IMG/VR virus record: IMGVR_UViG_3300025728_000351
Span: 1-20,318 of that record
Direction: 5' to 3' (one strand)
Length of the DNA stretch: 20,318 nt
Source of the DNA: a virus
Position numbers and translations under genes: made by a program. Below, piece after piece: positions 208 to 8,161 of this stretch (the stretch's first letter is position 1; every line of letters starts with the position of its first letter). The notes under the pieces were generated by a model that did not search any database, was not told the origin of the DNA, and saw only the letters and a list, made by a program, of their open reading frames with translations.

Positions 208-532
208 CGGCCATTGATCGGACCGGGAAAACTCTACCTCTAACCGGACAAACTTTCCCCTGAACGGAACCCCGGATTTATCGGGGGCAAATCATCAAAG
301 GTAAGGCCAAGACGGGATTGGGGGCCGGCGGGGCTGGTGGAACGGGGCCGTACAGCGTGACGATAATGGTAACGACCAGGAGTAAATTGTTTAGGGTTTG
401 GTTTAAAGACATCGGTAAATTCTCTCGTATGTCTTTTATTTAGCTTGGCGAGATTCTGAATCAGCCGGAAAACGCTACCGTTCGTCGGGCGGCCTAAAAA
501 TAGTTCGGGGCGGCCGCCGGCGAGTGACCGCC

Positions 533-553
533 GCGTTACGAATAACGGCGTTT
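533..553. repeat. GCGTTACG palindrome repeat, copy 1
   Basis: CGTTA-CGAA-TAACG forms a 5-bp stem with a CGAA tetraloop inside a 21-base block that recurs exactly at 1684-1704. A close variant lies at 1982-1997. This copy is followed 20 bases later by a terminator hairpin, as is copy 3. Confidence 0.8.
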
Positions 554-572
554 TCGTTTAATCGCCCCCCAC

Positions 573-2049: not shown

Positions 2050-3216
2050 CTACAGCTTCAGCGCCATCTGCAAAATCCCTATGACATCCGGCCCATCCTC
2101 ATTGATCCACGTCCCATAGTGCTGACGGATCATGTTCCCATTGGTATGTCCCATCTGCTCGGCGATCCAATCGACCGAAGCTACCCCCGTAGTCAACAAC
2201 TGGCTGGCGTAGGTATGCCGGCACTGGCCAGGCCCACGATAACGAACCCCGGCCGTGTTCAAGTGAGCCTTGAAGAACCGATCTCGCACAACGAAGTCGC
2301 TGACATGCGGTAAACCGCTCTTCGTGTTCAGGAATACGAAGTGCAGCTTGTGTTGCCGCACGGTCTTGTTGTCCCGTTCAACGATATCGACCGTCTGCGC
2401 TTTTTTGGTCGGGTTCATTGCATCAATCTTGCGTAGCGCATCCCACGCTGGCTCCAACAGCCGAACCTTCCGAGTCGAGCGCCGGGTTTTCGTCACCCGG
2501 TAAGCCCCGCGCACCTTGGATCGACGAAACGTCACCGTCCCTTGCTGCAGATCGACATCCTCCCAAGCCAGGGCGATGGTTTCTGATACCCGTGGTCCCG
2601 CCCAAATCATGAACTGGATCATCAGCAGCTCTTGCGTGCGATGGGTCGGTGTTTCGAGGATCTGTTTGATTTCCGCCCTGGTGAACGGGTCCGGTGCTTC
2701 AGGATCGGGCAAGCGGACGAACAGCCCTTCAGTCGGATCATGAGCGACTTTCTTGCGGGTACGGTAAAGCCGGAAGACTTGTCGCACGTTGCTGATAATG
2801 TCGCGGATGGTCTTGTTCTTCAGCCGCTTCGACAGCGTGTCCTGCACCCATTCCTGCAAATCCAGGTGATCGATCTGATCGATCTGAACCTTGCCCCAGC
2901 GCGGCCGGACATGCACCTCAGCCTTGTTGGCATAACCCCGATAGGAGGTTGCGGCAACGCTATTGCTTTTGATCTTCAGCCACAGATCAAGGTAATGACC
3001 GAAGGTGTTCTCGACTAGATTGGCTGAGTCAGGAAAATGCCGGCTGTAGTTGAAGGTGCCGGCCTGTATCTCGTATTCGATGATGTTTACCAGGCGCTCT
3101 GCTTGCTCTCGGTTGGCCGCAGTGTTGCCGCCGGGGATGAGCTCCCGGTACCGCTTGCCGTTGAAACGAAAATAGACCCGCACCGAATTGCCACGGGCCT
3201 CTACGCCATGTGCCAT
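2050..3216 (-). CDS. int: Tyrosine-recombinase phage integrase
   Basis: A 388-aa site-specific recombinase that would integrate and, with a directionality factor, excise the prophage. The N-terminus (about residues 5-60, VRVYFRFNGKRYRELIPGGN) matches the arm-type DNA-binding domain of the DUF3596 class. Residues 65-165 form the core-binding domain and 175-375 the catalytic domain. Catalytic residues visible are Arg209 (GPRVSE), Arg333 (GQCRHT), His357 (MGHT) and nucleophile Tyr367 (QHYGTW). The usual HxxR motif has Gly at the His position, as in the PYQxRHT variant of this group. AGGGA lies six bases before the chosen ATG. It is isolated from the early operon by the hairpin at 3264-3291. A diverged 3' fragment of a relative lies at 1274-1321. 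Confidence 0.95.
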   Translation of the reverse strand: MAHGVEARGNSVRVYFRFNGKRYRELIPGGNTAANREQAERLVNIIEYEIQAGTFNYSRHFPDSANLVENTFGHYLDLWLKIKSNSVAATSYRGYANKAEVHVRPRWGKVQIDQIDHLDLQEWVQDTLSKRLKNKTIRDIISNVRQVFRLYRTRKKVAHDPTEGLFVRLPDPEAPDPFTRAEIKQILETPTHRTQELLMIQFMIWAGPRVSETIALAWEDVDLQQGTVTFRRSKVRGAYRVTKTRRSTRKVRLLEPAWDALRKIDAMNPTKKAQTVDIVERDNKTVRQHKLHFVFLNTKSGLPHVSDFVVRDRFFKAHLNTAGVRYRGPGQCRHTYASQLLTTGVASVDWIAEQMGHTNGNMIRQHYGTWINEDGPDVIGILQMALKL

Positions 3217-3562: not shown

Positions 3563-3802
3563 CTACTGATTGGAAAACCTCGGTGCCGCCAGCTGCGCCG
3601 GCCCCTGTTCATGTCGGCCCTGGACTTCGCAAATGAAGTAATGAAGCTTCCGGTTTTTGGCGGTCAATGCGGCCGTCAACTGCGGGACGGTCGCAATGCA
3701 CTGTTCATATGCATCAGGTTTGATCCAGCGTTGAACTGGGATCACCTGGCAGTCAGTGTGGGACGCGTCGACGCACAGGTACATCAGAAGGAGGGCGGTC
3801 AT
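3563..3802 (-). CDS. Small, possibly exported hypothetical protein
   Basis: A 79-aa protein whose ATG (3802) overlaps the TGA of the preceding gene as ATGA, implying translational coupling; GGAGGG lies at good distance. The N-terminus (TALLLMYLCVDASHTDCQVI) is a short hydrophobic stretch like a signal peptide or membrane anchor. The rest contains four cysteines and ends in a His/Gln-rich tail. An in-frame start two codons upstream would be too close to the binding site. No family is recognised. An envelope location is suggested but the hydrophobic core is short. Confidence 0.65.
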   Translation of the reverse strand: MTALLLMYLCVDASHTDCQVIPVQRWIKPDAYEQCIATVPQLTAALTAKNRKLHYFICEVQGRHEQGPAQLAAPRFSNQ

Positions 3803-4068
3803 GACCATTGCCCTCCAGTCAGCAGGCGTGTCAGCGCGTTCGGTTGGCCTTCCTGCGTCAGCTTGTCGAGCGGTTGGGTGATGTGTCGGCCATTGCCAAC
3901 ACGCACTGTTGCAACCTGGCCATCTATCTCGGTAATCACTCCTTTGCGAGCGCTGAATCGGTAGCCACGACCTACTGCCGTGATTTGGACGTAGCTGACA
4001 CGATCACCGATAGCGAGCGGGTTCGTGGTAGCCTCTTCAATACCGCCTTTGGGTTGATTCACTTGCAT
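3799..4068 (-). CDS. Small beta-rich (SH3/KOW-like) hypothetical protein
   Basis: An 89-aa protein with strong ribosome binding site AAAAGGAG. After a polar N-terminus, residues 20-68 (IGDRVSYVQITAVGRGYRFS, then KGVITEIDGQVATVRVGNGR) show the alternating strand pattern and glycine turns of a small SH3- or KOW-like barrel, a fold often used for RNA, DNA or protein contacts. Catalytic residues are absent. It follows the 4146-4532 gene and overlaps the next gene by four bases. Its mRNA leader contains a 12-bp hairpin that closely parallels the leader of the 4532 gene, so the two are probably co-regulated. Confidence 0.7.
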   Translation of the reverse strand: MQVNQPKGGIEEATTNPLAIGDRVSYVQITAVGRGYRFSARKGVITEIDGQVATVRVGNGRHITQPLDKLTQEGQPNALTRLLTGGQWS

Positions 4069-4121
4069 GGTGCTTCTCCTTTTGTGTGGTCGGTGCCGAG
4101 GGGTTGCAGCCCCTCGGCACC
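4062..4121 (-). promoter_or_regulatory. Structured mRNA leader with CTGCAA hexaloop (A)
   Basis: On the minus strand, GGTGCCGAGGGG and CCCCTCGGCACC pair perfectly around the loop CTGCAA. Eight bases later comes AAAAGGAGAAGCACC and the ATG. The 22 bases covering the binding site, the start and four coding bases are identical to those of leader B at 4526-4573, and loop sequence and spacing are also conserved, while the stem bases differ. Confidence 0.75.
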
Positions 4122-4145
4122 AGTTCTTTTCCGGTTTTGCCGAGA

Positions 4146-4532
4146 TCAGTGCAGGCGGATTTTCTTGCCGTCCTGCATCACGTAAAGATTCACATCGGCT
4201 ATCCGGTACTGGCCGCCGATTCCTCCCTTGACCACGTAACCACCAAAGTCCTCGACGATGCAGACCTTGAACGGGTAGCCGTACTGGCTATTACGGCAAA
4301 GGTCCACCTGACAGGCGTACTTGCTCGACTTCTTGATTTCCGCGTAAAGCTGCTGACTGGCAGCGGGCACCTCGTGCGAACCATGGGCTGCGTAAAAGCC
4401 GCGCCATGCGTCGAAGGTGCTTGAATTGTTGTAGGCGGACTCACCTTCACAGATCGTCAGGTCTAGGCCTTCGGCTGCTGCCCAGTCCTCAAAGGCGAGT
4501 CGCAGATTCAGGTGCTTGAGGTTGTCTTGCAT
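4146..4532 (-). CDS. Hypothetical early-operon protein
   Basis: A 128-aa soluble protein. The start is fixed by AAAAGGAG before ATG. The first half is helical and acidic (LAFEDWAAAEGLDL), with a short aromatic segment FDAWRGFYAAHG; the second half is strand-rich with a glycine-rich section (VEDFGGYVVKGGIGGQYRIA). Three cysteines lie in the centre. No signal peptide or membrane helix is seen and I recognise no family. It follows the stand-alone helicase gene after a 63-base gap holding leader B. Unrelated in sequence to the gene at 3799-4068 despite the shared leader. A phage replication-accessory or host-takeover role is only a guess. Confidence 0.65.
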   Translation of the reverse strand: MQDNLKHLNLRLAFEDWAAAEGLDLTICEGESAYNNSSTFDAWRGFYAAHGSHEVPAASQQLYAEIKKSSKYACQVDLCRNSQYGYPFKVCIVEDFGGYVVKGGIGGQYRIADVNLYVMQDGKKIRLH

Positions 4533-4573
4533 GGTGCTTCTCCTTTTATGTAGCCCAGGCGTTGCAGCGCCTG
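4526..4573 (-). promoter_or_regulatory. Structured mRNA leader with CTGCAA hexaloop (B)
   Basis: On the minus strand CAGGCG and CGCCTG pair perfectly around CTGCAA, eight bases before AAAAGGAGAAGCACC-ATG. Same loop, same spacing and same binding site as leader A, but a shorter stem of different sequence, so pairing rather than sequence is kept. Confidence 0.75.
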
Positions 4574-4595: not shown

Positions 4596-5420
4596 TCAGT
4601 ACGGAATAGACGCCAAACCAACGTTGTGTTCGACTTGATTAAGGGCACTGCGGCGTTGCTCTTCGGTGAGGTTGAGCAGGAGACTGAGCACGTCCACCAA
4701 GGCCATTAGCAATCCGCCGTTTTTTGCGACTCGCGAACTCGGTTGAGCTGGGTGCTTTTCATAAAGAGTTGCTGAGTAGGCTGGAGCCAGCCTGTTAACC
4801 GAGCTGACCGTTTGATCTGCCCGCTGATCCAGGGCACGACCAAATGCCCCGGCCTGCTCAGACGTGAGTTGATACAACGCTTGTGCGTGGTGGCGGCTTT
4901 CGGTTGTATGGGGCGTCGTCAGCATTACGCGGACCATCCGGCTTTCAAGTGCGTCGCTGCATTCGATGGGCGGATTCGCGCTGATCACCAACGTTCCCTT
5001 GAAGGTGGCCTGAGTCTGTTCACTTGGCGAATGGACTGAGAGGGTGCCCCCGTTGTAGAGCGAGGCAATTTGTTCCCAATCAAATTTGGATTCGTGTTCG
5101 AAGTCGTTACTGCTCTCAAGAATCACGGGTGAATCACCGGCGTTGGCGATGATGCGGGCAAGTCCTCTTGGTGTTGCATGCCATGGGGAATAGGACGTCA
5201 ATGAGTCCAGGCCGTTGAGTGCCCACAGGTAACTCAGCAAGGACGTTTTCCCGCTACCCGTGCTGCCGGTGATGTACAGGAAGGGAAAGCCGTGCTGTTC
5301 CGCACGGATCTGCTCCGCGTGTTTTGCGCCAAGCCACCAGGCCATTGCGACAACACCCTGCGCGCCAAACACGGCATGGAAGTCGTCAAAGCGGATGGCG
5401 GATTTCAGTTCGTTTTGCAT
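4596..5420 (-). CDS. Stand-alone AAA+/SF3-like helicase paralogue
   Basis: A 274-aa ATPase whose whole length aligns with the C-terminal helicase half of the neighbouring 904-aa primase. Shared blocks include FGA(Q/K)G(V/I)VA(M/L)A, AEQIRA, FPFL, FDW, GGTL and TTESR. Walker A is GSTGSGKTS (residues 52-60), the likely Walker B is SPVILE, and sensor-1 Asn lies in VISANPP. It lacks zinc-finger and TOPRIM parts. I placed the start at 5420 because GAAGGAG precedes that ATG; the reading frame stays open 47 codons further, into the primase 3' end, without a better site. It follows the primase by 26 bases. A helicase subunit, loader or mixed-ring partner of the primase is likely by homology; which one is unknown. 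Confidence 0.85.
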   Translation of the reverse strand: MQNELKSAIRFDDFHAVFGAQGVVAMAWWLGAKHAEQIRAEQHGFPFLYITGSTGSGKTSLLSYLWALNGLDSLTSYSPWHATPRGLARIIANAGDSPVILESSNDFEHESKFDWEQIASLYNGGTLSVHSPSEQTQATFKGTLVISANPPIECSDALESRMVRVMLTTPHTTESRHHAQALYQLTSEQAGAFGRALDQRADQTVSSVNRLAPAYSATLYEKHPAQPSSRVAKNGGLLMALVDVLSLLLNLTEEQRRSALNQVEHNVGLASIPY

Positions 5421-5446
5421 TGTGTTGCTCCTTCGGTTACAGCGGT

Positions 5447-8161
5447 TTACGCGCTCTGGAAAATCCAGCAACGCACGGTGGTGGGTTTGTTGAACATCGA
5501 GTTGCCGGCGGCTTGCGAGGCACGCACCGCGCTGTAAACCGCCTTGTTGGTTTCCAGCCATTTACGGCTACGGCTATTCACCAGCAGCCCGCGTAAAGTC
5601 TTGAGGTCGGCCAGGTTCTGCCGATGCTCGCTGGCCTTTTCGGCGAACTCGTTGAGATTGATGGCGATGAGTTTCGGGTCGGTGCTGTGGTTGACCTGCG
5701 GGCCTTCGCCCAGGCTTTCGAGGTATTCGAAGACTTCCCAGAATTCAGCCACCAGTGGGTGATCTGCGCTGATTGCGGACTGCCGCTCCAGGGCCATGAC
5801 CGTGAGTGCCTGTTGCGTGGTCACCACCTGGTTTTCATCCAGCGGGCAGACCAGACGCAGGCAGTCGACCAGGGCCATTAACTGGCTGTGGTTCTTGATG
5901 ATCCGTTCAACGCGGATTTCTTTGAGGGTGCGCAGCTGCCGTTCGTGAACGAGCACGCGCTCGGCAAACTTCGCCATCACCTGCGCTTCTGCGCGCACGG
6001 CCAGCAGCAGGAAGTGGCTCAGCTGTTCAACCGGGATCAGGTTTAGGTTGTCAGCGGCTGCGCGGCTTTCCGTGGTGACTTCCGGGCGTGCAAAGTGCGA
6101 TTTGATAATCCGGGTCAGGATCGCCTCGGAGGCGCTGACATCAGCGTTCTGGCTGATGGCAATGGCGCCACGAAACGGCGGTTCGTAGGTCTCGTTGCCG
6201 CTGGTTTTCATGCCCTTGGTGCCGAGCGTACCGCCGCCGTAAAAGTCCTTCAGCTCATCCCAGTCGAAGCCTTTGGCGTGGGCCTTGTCCGGCTCGTTAC
6301 GGTCGCCTTCGATCAGCACCACCGGCATGTTGGAGACTTGGCCCATGGCGCGCTGTCGGCCGGCACGGGTCGATTTCGATGGGTCAAAACCTTCATGCTC
6401 CCGGCCCAGCAGTTTCCACAGGAAGGTCAGCAGCGTGGTTTTGCCGGCGCCGGCTTCGCCCGTGACTTCAAGGAACGGGAAGGATTTGTACTGTGCGCGG
6501 ATCTGTTCGGCGAACAGCGAGCCAAACCAGAACGCCAGGGCGACAATTCCCTTGGCGCCGAAGCACAGCCACAGCATCGGCAACCAGTCGGTGCGGTACT
6601 GCTTGCTGTCGCGCTGGATGTGCATGGCGATCGACTTTTGCAGCGTCTTGAGCCGCAGCTTGCCGAACTCGAAAAAGTCTTCTTTGTTCACCACGCTGAC
6701 GATGCCGCCGCGCACGGCAAGGTCGCCGAATACATAGCAGCTGTGGAGTTTGCTGTAGCCGATGAAGTCGATGGTCTCAACGGTTTTCAGGCCAAACAGC
6801 TGATCCTTCATGATCTTGTCGAGCTGCTGTCCGCTGCCGGTGAACACCGCGCCGGCTGCCATGCTGAGCAGGCGCTTTTTGAACTCGCTTGCGGCGGCGA
6901 CCTGGCCACCGGTGAAGGTGTTCTTGACGCTGCCGCTGTCGTGCGGGAAATCGACGCGGAAGTAATACCAGGATTCGTCGGTGACTTCGTTGCGTTGGAA
7001 ATACAGCGCCTGCGGATAGCAGTTGGCGATTTCAACGACACCACCGCACTGGCGTAGGGCTTTTTGCCGGCGCTGATCTTCATTGAGTAGCTGGTCTTCG
7101 TGGCGGTCAGATGTCTCTAGCGACAACATCGCCTTGCTGAACTTCTCCAGGTCCATCTTGAACCAGTACAGACGGCTGTCGAAGCCGAAGTGAAATTCAT
7201 GGCGTTCGCGCCAGTCATACATCAACACGCCTTTCTCTGCCGCACTTTCAGCGATCAGCAGTGAGCCGTGGTAGCGGGCCGTGGCGAGGTCTTTTTCGAC
7301 CTGCTCAGCGCGCTCGCTTTCGCCATCGATGAACGCCCAGCGCTGATGCAGATCGTTCCAGTCGACCTTGCGGCTGTCCGGTTGTGGGATCTGAGCCGCT
7401 TCACATTCGTAGCCCAAGGCGCGAGCCTGACGCACCCAGCGCTTGGTGTACTTATGCGCGCCTGGCTCGTTGTCCAGTGCCCAAACCAGTTTGGGCAACT
7501 TGCCGCCGCGCAGCCGTGCCAGTTCTTTCAGCGACTCTTCAGGATAGGCACCGGACGACATCGCCGACACCGCTGCAATGCCGTTGTGCACCAGGGCGAT
7601 GGCGTCGAATATGCCCTCAACAATCCACAGCTCTTTGACGTCCAGCAGATCGACACAGGGCGGACACCACCAGAAACCACGTGGACTATCACCAGGCTTG
7701 AACCGCGCTTTCATCTTGCCGAACCGGTGCGGCCGGTCGATCAGGCGTTCCCAGTAGCCACCCTTTTCCAGAGCGAAACGCACCGTAGCGCTACCGGCAT
7801 TCAACTCACCAGAGAAGTACGTTTCCTGAGTAAACCAGCCCTGAATCAGATCGAGGCGAAAGCCGCGGGCAAATTCCAGATAGGCGCGGGCCGTGGCATT
7901 GGGATGTTGCTCAGACGCCGGGGCGCGCTTGCTCCAGTCATTGAACAAGTCTTCGTAGATTTCTTTGACGTGCCAGGTGTGACCGCACTTGCCCCGGCCG
8001 CAACGGATCATCCACGGGTCATCATGGAAGGCATACAGCTCTTTTTTCTTGCACGATGGGCAAACCCCTTCGCGCATGTATTTGCCTGCCTTGTGCTTCA
8101 GGCCGTAGTCAGCCTGAAGCTTCTCCAGAATTTCGGCGCGTAGATCGTGTTTCATATTCAT
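5447..8161 (-). CDS. Zinc-finger/TOPRIM primase-helicase
   Basis: A 904-aa replication protein expected to lay RNA primers and unwind the fork. Residues 30-65 form a zinc-binding domain (Cys34-x2-Cys37, Cys54, Cys59). Residues 175-260 form a TOPRIM domain with Glu182 (WIVEGIFDAIAL) and the acidic ALDNEPG motif at 228-234. The C-terminal part is an AAA+/SF3-like helicase with Walker A GEAGAGKTT (568-576), a Walker B-like MPVVLIEGD and a sensor Asn in AISQNAD. The start is either ATG at 8161 or the ATG two codons later; the binding site is weak, so coupling to the gene just upstream is likely. It replaces the rolling-circle gpA of P2 itself, pointing to theta-type replication. Next to it lies a paralogue of its helicase half. 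Confidence 0.92.
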   Translation of the reverse strand: MNMKHDLRAEILEKLQADYGLKHKAGKYMREGVCPSCKKKELYAFHDDPWMIRCGRGKCGHTWHVKEIYEDLFNDWSKRAPASEQHPNATARAYLEFARGFRLDLIQGWFTQETYFSGELNAGSATVRFALEKGGYWERLIDRPHRFGKMKARFKPGDSPRGFWWCPPCVDLLDVKELWIVEGIFDAIALVHNGIAAVSAMSSGAYPEESLKELARLRGGKLPKLVWALDNEPGAHKYTKRWVRQARALGYECEAAQIPQPDSRKVDWNDLHQRWAFIDGESERAEQVEKDLATARYHGSLLIAESAAEKGVLMYDWRERHEFHFGFDSRLYWFKMDLEKFSKAMLSLETSDRHEDQLLNEDQRRQKALRQCGGVVEIANCYPQALYFQRNEVTDESWYYFRVDFPHDSGSVKNTFTGGQVAAASEFKKRLLSMAAGAVFTGSGQQLDKIMKDQLFGLKTVETIDFIGYSKLHSCYVFGDLAVRGGIVSVVNKEDFFEFGKLRLKTLQKSIAMHIQRDSKQYRTDWLPMLWLCFGAKGIVALAFWFGSLFAEQIRAQYKSFPFLEVTGEAGAGKTTLLTFLWKLLGREHEGFDPSKSTRAGRQRAMGQVSNMPVVLIEGDRNEPDKAHAKGFDWDELKDFYGGGTLGTKGMKTSGNETYEPPFRGAIAISQNADVSASEAILTRIIKSHFARPEVTTESRAAADNLNLIPVEQLSHFLLLAVRAEAQVMAKFAERVLVHERQLRTLKEIRVERIIKNHSQLMALVDCLRLVCPLDENQVVTTQQALTVMALERQSAISADHPLVAEFWEVFEYLESLGEGPQVNHSTDPKLIAINLNEFAEKASEHRQNLADLKTLRGLLVNSRSRKWLETNKAVYSAVRASQAAGNSMFNKPTTVRCWIFQSA

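Follow-up and report, generated by a model that had tools for sequence, protein, structure and literature searches.

The window, by which we mean the whole stretch of DNA analysed here (a 20-kb virus record of 20,318 nucleotides), encodes an integrase and a Toprim primase (phrog_1139) and gives signals of P2-type tail genes and of Ogr/Delta. Between the primase and the integrase lie two structured leaders, A and B, which stand on the minus strand before two genes with ATG codons at 4532 and 4068, respectively (Table 1). AlphaFold2 models the protein of gene B with a mean pLDDT of 81 and with an N-terminal segment that is predicted to be disordered; compared with the PDB, this model gives weak matches only, to Tudor and SH3/KOW folds, none of them at E <= 0.001.

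Table 1. Leaders and neighbouring genes in the window; the training set of CM R1 (52 sequences) included leaders A and B, so that their scores in this table are not independent.
Feature	Position	Strand	Evidence or remark
Phage DNA primase, Toprim, phrog_1139	5447..8161	-	Leader array starts after it; present in 38/38 leader-bearing loci
Degenerate third leader: CTGTAA without a proper stem, AAGGAGCAACACA, ATGCA	5416..5459	-	CM R1 13.7 bits, E 0.015
Gene behind the degenerate leader	4596..5420	-	Resembles C-terminal part of primase (phrog_1139), 2e-47
Leader A hairpin CAGGCG-CTGCAA-CGCCTG, 6 bp + hexaloop	4556..4573	-	Sequence; CM R1 59.6 bits, E 1.7e-17
Leader A linker GGCTACAT + ribosome-binding site AAAAGGAGAAGCACC	4533..4555	-	Sequence; family-wide conservation
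Gene A, 128 aa, start ATGCA	4146..4532	-	phrog_18597 (no assigned function)
Leader B hairpin GGTGCCGAGGGG-CTGCAA-CCCCTCGGCACC, 12 bp + hexaloop	4092..4121	-	Sequence; CM R1 63.5 bits, E 8.9e-19
Leader B linker GACCACAC + ribosome-binding site AAAAGGAGAAGCACC	4069..4091	-	Sequence
Gene B, 89 aa; SH3/Tudor/KOW-like small barrel after disordered N-terminal segment MQVNQPKGGIEEATT	3799..4068	-	phrog_3728, E 2e-6
Integrase	2050..3216	-	Pfam Phage_integrase 2.4e-15; downstream limit of accessory region

The original prediction described both leaders as a hairpin with a CTGCAA hexaloop, followed by eight bases and AAAAGGAGAAGCACC-ATG, and this anatomy is correct to the base. As it also claimed, 22 nt (AAAAGGAGAAGCACCATGCAAG) are identical between A and B on the minus strand, the two 8-nt linkers differ by transitions only, and the unlike stems both pair perfectly, with 6 and 12 Watson-Crick pairs; one extra G-U pair is possible on each. 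Folding yields a hairpin for either leader and leaves the ribosome-binding site unpaired. The degenerate third leader precedes the gene at 4596-5420, and an intact leader stands in L067 before a similar gene that starts with MQNELKTIIRFNDF. The gene at 4596-5420 adjoins the primase that it resembles; its leader has decayed here, and relatives elsewhere have intact ones.

A wider search answers a question on which the original prediction turned, namely whether further examples exist: they occur in well over 100 related phages, and the leader is present in over 100 IMG/VR contigs. A member of this family consists of a covarying hairpin with the hexaloop C[U/G]GCAA, closed by a G-C pair, then an A/C-rich linker of 6-11 nt, AAGGAGAAGCACC and AUGCA. 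The stem varies in sequence and length while its pairing stays, and the ribosome-binding site is unpaired in folds; many leaders have short or imperfect stems, many others perfect hairpins. The hairpins usually begin no more than about 45 nt past the preceding stop codon. Leaders stand before many unrelated genes in the primase-to-integrase interval of P2-like Pseudomonas phages, usually in 2-4 copies per phage; in Citexvirus D14A all three lie between helicase/primase and integrase. Of 399 Pseudomonas species genomes, 44 contain the hairpin and ribosome-binding site pattern, nearly always clustered, and the reversed-pattern control gave 0. Strong matches to the leader model are limited to Pseudomonas-like genomes with such prophages, and a 229-genome sample of the class yielded just two genomes with them, the centre genome and another that carries a similar prophage. 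All 38 leader-bearing loci compared encode a primase, an Ogr-like protein, a phrog_3967 protein and a 9132 protein, and are thus P2-like prophages.

The association of loop, hairpin and start site does not depend on a search for the loop. When only AAGGAGAAGCACCATG was fixed and the upstream DNA was then read, about 208 of the 270 distinct sites had C[TG][GC]CAA upstream, and the perfect-stem hexaloops were dominated by CTGCAA (102) and CGGCAA (55). The start context ATGC accompanied 204 of the 208 sites with C[TG][GC]CAA, as against 12 of the 62 without. Conversely, in the 38 prophage loci an SD sequence and ATG followed 71 of 73 hairpins with a CTGCAA or CGGCAA hexaloop, compared with 12 of 1198 hexaloop hairpins with another loop. 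This association is not due to chance. A third loop state, CGCCAA, was seen in L033, L007, L030 and L031, in the first of these on two leaders. The base run preceding the SD sequence also varies by loop type, being mostly CCCAAGGAG in G-type and CCAAAGGAG in U-type loci.

Leaders A and B both show the makeup captured by the family model CM R1, which combines a covarying stem with a C[UG]GCAA hexaloop and AAGGAGAAGCACC-AUGC. Rfam 15 gave no match above the gathering threshold in the window, the best sub-threshold match being ctRNA_pGA1 on the opposite strand (25 bits, 45 required), and searches of the literature, Rfam and plasmids found nothing that names or describes the leader element. The loops CTGCAA and CGGCAA lack the GGA of a CsrA/RsmA hairpin, GGA lying in the unpaired SD sequence; an A/C-rich linker follows the hairpin in place of the U-run of an intrinsic terminator. 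Judged from sequence, the leader family is a real, widespread and previously undescribed cis-regulatory element, whose mechanism we infer.

The pairing of the stem is preserved by compensatory change. In an alignment of 52 diverse leaders, ascertained by loop and ribosome-binding site and not by stem, 89.8% of the cells in the six core pairs are paired (shuffled mean 62.9), all six core pairs show double compensatory changes, with 79 double-change cells against 28.6 after shuffling, and the covariation score is 0.589 against 0.151; such values were reached in 0 of 500 shuffles. Slid pairing registers are just 32-52% paired, and a separate count of 130 distinct leaders picked by ribosome-binding site and loop alone gave the same outcome. 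Together with the further examples, these changes strongly support a constrained structured leader common to unrelated genes, as proposed earlier. Mismatches within the stems comprise 22 A-C and 20 G-U; since A-C is about as frequent as G-U, pairing in RNA and in single-stranded DNA are not told apart by these counts.

The second loop position is U or G, and never both in one phage. Among leader pairs from 37 phage loci, the loops agree in 88 of 88 within-phage pairs and in 49% of between-phage pairs, whereas identical 6-bp stems are rarer within phages (2%) than between them (5%). CTGCAA and CGGCAA are mixed in 0 of 131 multi-leader viral contigs, a set chosen by the CTGCAA pattern in which a single match per contig sufficed, and in no prophage cluster of the 44 Pseudomonas genomes that have the pattern. 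Mapped on the primase tree, the loop letter must have changed 7 times, and supported branches force at least 5-6 of these changes; the host rpoB tree likewise needs 7, at least 4 of them forced. The letter has thus switched at least 4-6 times on these trees, so that neither ancestry nor host alone fixes it. The loci L303 and L308, whose hosts have similar rpoB, illustrate such a switch: their flanking DNA is 93% and the three universal proteins are 96-98% identical, and both homologous leaders have changed between U and G inside alignable sequence. Single leader-borne gene families also contain both loop types. Conversion between leaders explains this poorly, because stem letters would be carried along too. 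We infer that common ancestry, host and inter-leader conversion account poorly for the concordance, for which one factor recognising all leaders of a phage would account.

The "two otherwise unrelated genes" of the original prediction proved far too few, as the leader-borne proteins form about 30 clusters. Besides the barrel protein of gene B, they include C5 methylase-like, Arc-domain, DUF7673, DUF2786 and Zn-finger proteins and small predicted membrane peptides. Many share a 15-residue N-terminal segment, which occurs behind hairpins of the leader B type; as MQ[VA]NQPxGGxxEATT (4024-4068 in the window, minus strand) it is fused to unrelated C-terminal domains, among them Arc, Zn finger and the KOW-like barrel. 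Nonsynonymous differences outnumber synonymous ones in this segment, and its conservation is unlike that of a protein; it looks as if DNA or RNA, and not the peptide, were preserved.

We consider it probable (about 60%) that a single cis-acting RNA element recurs in all the leaders, a multi-gene translational operator that would be read in trans by a phage-specified factor. In P2-like Pseudomonas phages, the element would govern the translation start of those accessory genes that follow the primase in its operon. The trans-acting factor, with a loop specificity set by the phage, would bind every leader of that phage at its loop and stem, and perhaps at the SD/AUGCA region too; this binding would change 30S access, probably by competition with the ribosome. 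The most likely effect would be repression or timing of accessory-gene translation, comparable to the gp43 or RegA operators of T4. The open ribosome-binding site and the near-fixed distance from hairpin to SD sequence point to translation initiation as the site of action, and a need for the loops to match the proposed factor would explain why each phage has one loop letter while its stems drift freely. By analogy, competition with 30S binding appears to be the most economical reading, and activation of the Com type the alternative. A more specific version, which we put at somewhat below even odds, is a translational regulon private to these phages. A single RNA-binding protein, encoded by the phage, would read the hexaloop (CUGCAA, CGGCAA or perhaps CGCCAA) of its 2-4 leaders as an "address"; this address would have been switched jointly several times, and newly captured accessory genes would come under control by acquiring a leader with or without the 15-codon start segment.

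The protein-bound operator of the original prediction is thus favoured by the loop concordance within phages, but no binding factor was found among the proteins compared. The KOW-like protein, suggested earlier as a possible partner of the loop RNA, is rejected as a general partner, being encoded in only 16 of the 38 leader-bearing loci. No alignment column follows the loop in the phrog_3967, Ogr-like or 9132 proteins, the primase or the repressor, and the first three are rejected as loop determinants, since they are 96-98% identical across a U/G pair. Within about 20 kb per locus, no gene family distinguishes the two types by occurring in most loci of one, U or G, and being missing from the other. 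An antisense small RNA to the loop was also rejected, as no conserved complementary-loop hairpin tracks the loop type.

Several phage systems share parts of this design. Lambda-type N proteins recognise boxB, short hairpins with a loop that the sites of a phage have in common and that varies from phage to phage along with the cognate protein. The leaders resemble boxB in having a loop common within and variable between phages; boxB differs in serving transcription antitermination together with boxA, at few sites per genome and with no fixed distance to an SD sequence. The DNA polymerase gp43 of T4 blocks initiation at an operator that combines a hairpin upstream of the start with a recognised sequence overlapping the ribosome-binding site (PMC3014915). 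Its anatomy of upstream hairpin and ribosome-binding site resembles that of the leaders, but it controls one autoregulated gene and has its hairpin about 40 nt upstream (PMC3014915) and another loop, whereas the leaders precede many genes. T4 RegA, which competes with the ribosome near the AUG of about 30 initiation regions (PMC3014915), is like the proposed leader factor in that one phage protein would act on many such regions. RegA sites are, however, unstructured and A+U-rich (PMC3014915), in contrast to the GC-rich leaders with their covarying hairpin and fixed loop, which show no such unstructured A+U-rich site at the AUG. In phage Mu, the loop read by the zinc-finger protein Com has six residues and belongs to a hairpin close to the translation start of mom, a likeness to the leaders. 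Com, however, activates one gene and recognises the motif CC(N)2-3GAG, and an adjacent inhibition structure conceals the start codon (PMC6483171); the leader ribosome-binding site is open. The letters of the leader loop do not fit CC(N)2-3GAG.

A relative lies in the Mu-like phages D3112/DMS3, where the leader of DMS3 gp7 has the same GGTGCCGAGGGG stem, a hexaloop, AAGGAGA and ATGCA (CM 28 bits, E 3e-7) and differs from the family in its loop TGGCCT and its single copy. This related leader of Mu-like P. aeruginosa phages occupies 5585-5641 in DMS3 (L250).

Among the other readings, we regard as unlikely a recombination linker or gene-capture cassette, in which the leader, with the 15-codon MQVNQPxGGxxEATT behind leader B, would be a homology hook or an attC-like single-stranded DNA hairpin for exchanging accessory genes and translation would be incidental. 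It suits the position of the leaders at gene boundaries, usually just past stop codons and before some 30 protein clusters, the recurrence of one N-terminal segment, not protein-like in its conservation, ahead of Arc, Zn-finger and barrel domains, and the equal frequency of A-C and G-U mismatches. A homology hook, however, would retain neither pairing through stem sequence change nor an exact SD sequence and AUGCA; stems less alike within a phage than between phages are the opposite of what homology needs, and a uniformity confined to the loop letter is left unexplained.

The original prediction also offered an mRNA stabiliser, which leaves both the conserved loop and the conserved AUGCA context unexplained. 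We think it improbable that the leaders are passive stabilisers with a strong ribosome-binding site, spread by duplication without a trans factor. Stable GC-rich hairpins directly upstream of an open ribosome-binding site in an operon would be in keeping with this, but a stabiliser needs no fixed loop, and the restriction of loop position 2 to U or G, complete agreement within phages and repeated joint switching would be unexpected. Slightly less probable again is a host RNA-binding factor that reads the loop, so that loop type follows the host. Although loop type is more clustered on the host tree than shuffled labels are, the seven changes on the rpoB tree speak against it, as do G211 (CGG) within a CTG clade, G391 (CGG) near G162 (CTG), and the restriction of strong leader-model matches to Pseudomonas-like genomes with such prophages; the rpoB tree rejects the host as the sole cause. 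Very improbable is a cis-only switch in which the loop UGCA pairs with the AUGCA of the start region in a pseudoknot hiding the start codon: the U-type loop is complementary to AUGCA over 4 bp and AUGC is near-invariant, but G-type CGGCAA loses the U-A pair with no compensating change in AUGCA, CGCCAA disrupts the pairing further, and the agreement among leaders of one phage is left unexplained.

What is new here is the leader family and the loop shared within each phage, which together suggest a hitherto undescribed RNA switch that a phage-specified factor would read. To our knowledge, few phages have translational regulons in which one RNA hairpin serves several genes. The many natural variants and the joint switching of a single loop letter make the specificity of such an operator directly testable. 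The leader would also help to predict which small uncharacterised genes of these phages are co-expressed, and in Pseudomonas it would be a candidate for an orthogonal RNA part.

Three similar repeats on the plus strand of the window (532-572, 1683-1723 and 1981-2021), which lie outside the early region of the phage, bear a CGTTACGAATAACG-like hairpin; the third has CGTTACGAGTAACG. A direct repeat of 82% identity links 1273-1321 with 2049-2097. As the latter copy overlaps the 3' end of the integrase gene, the copy at 1273-1321 may be a remnant or attachment-related.
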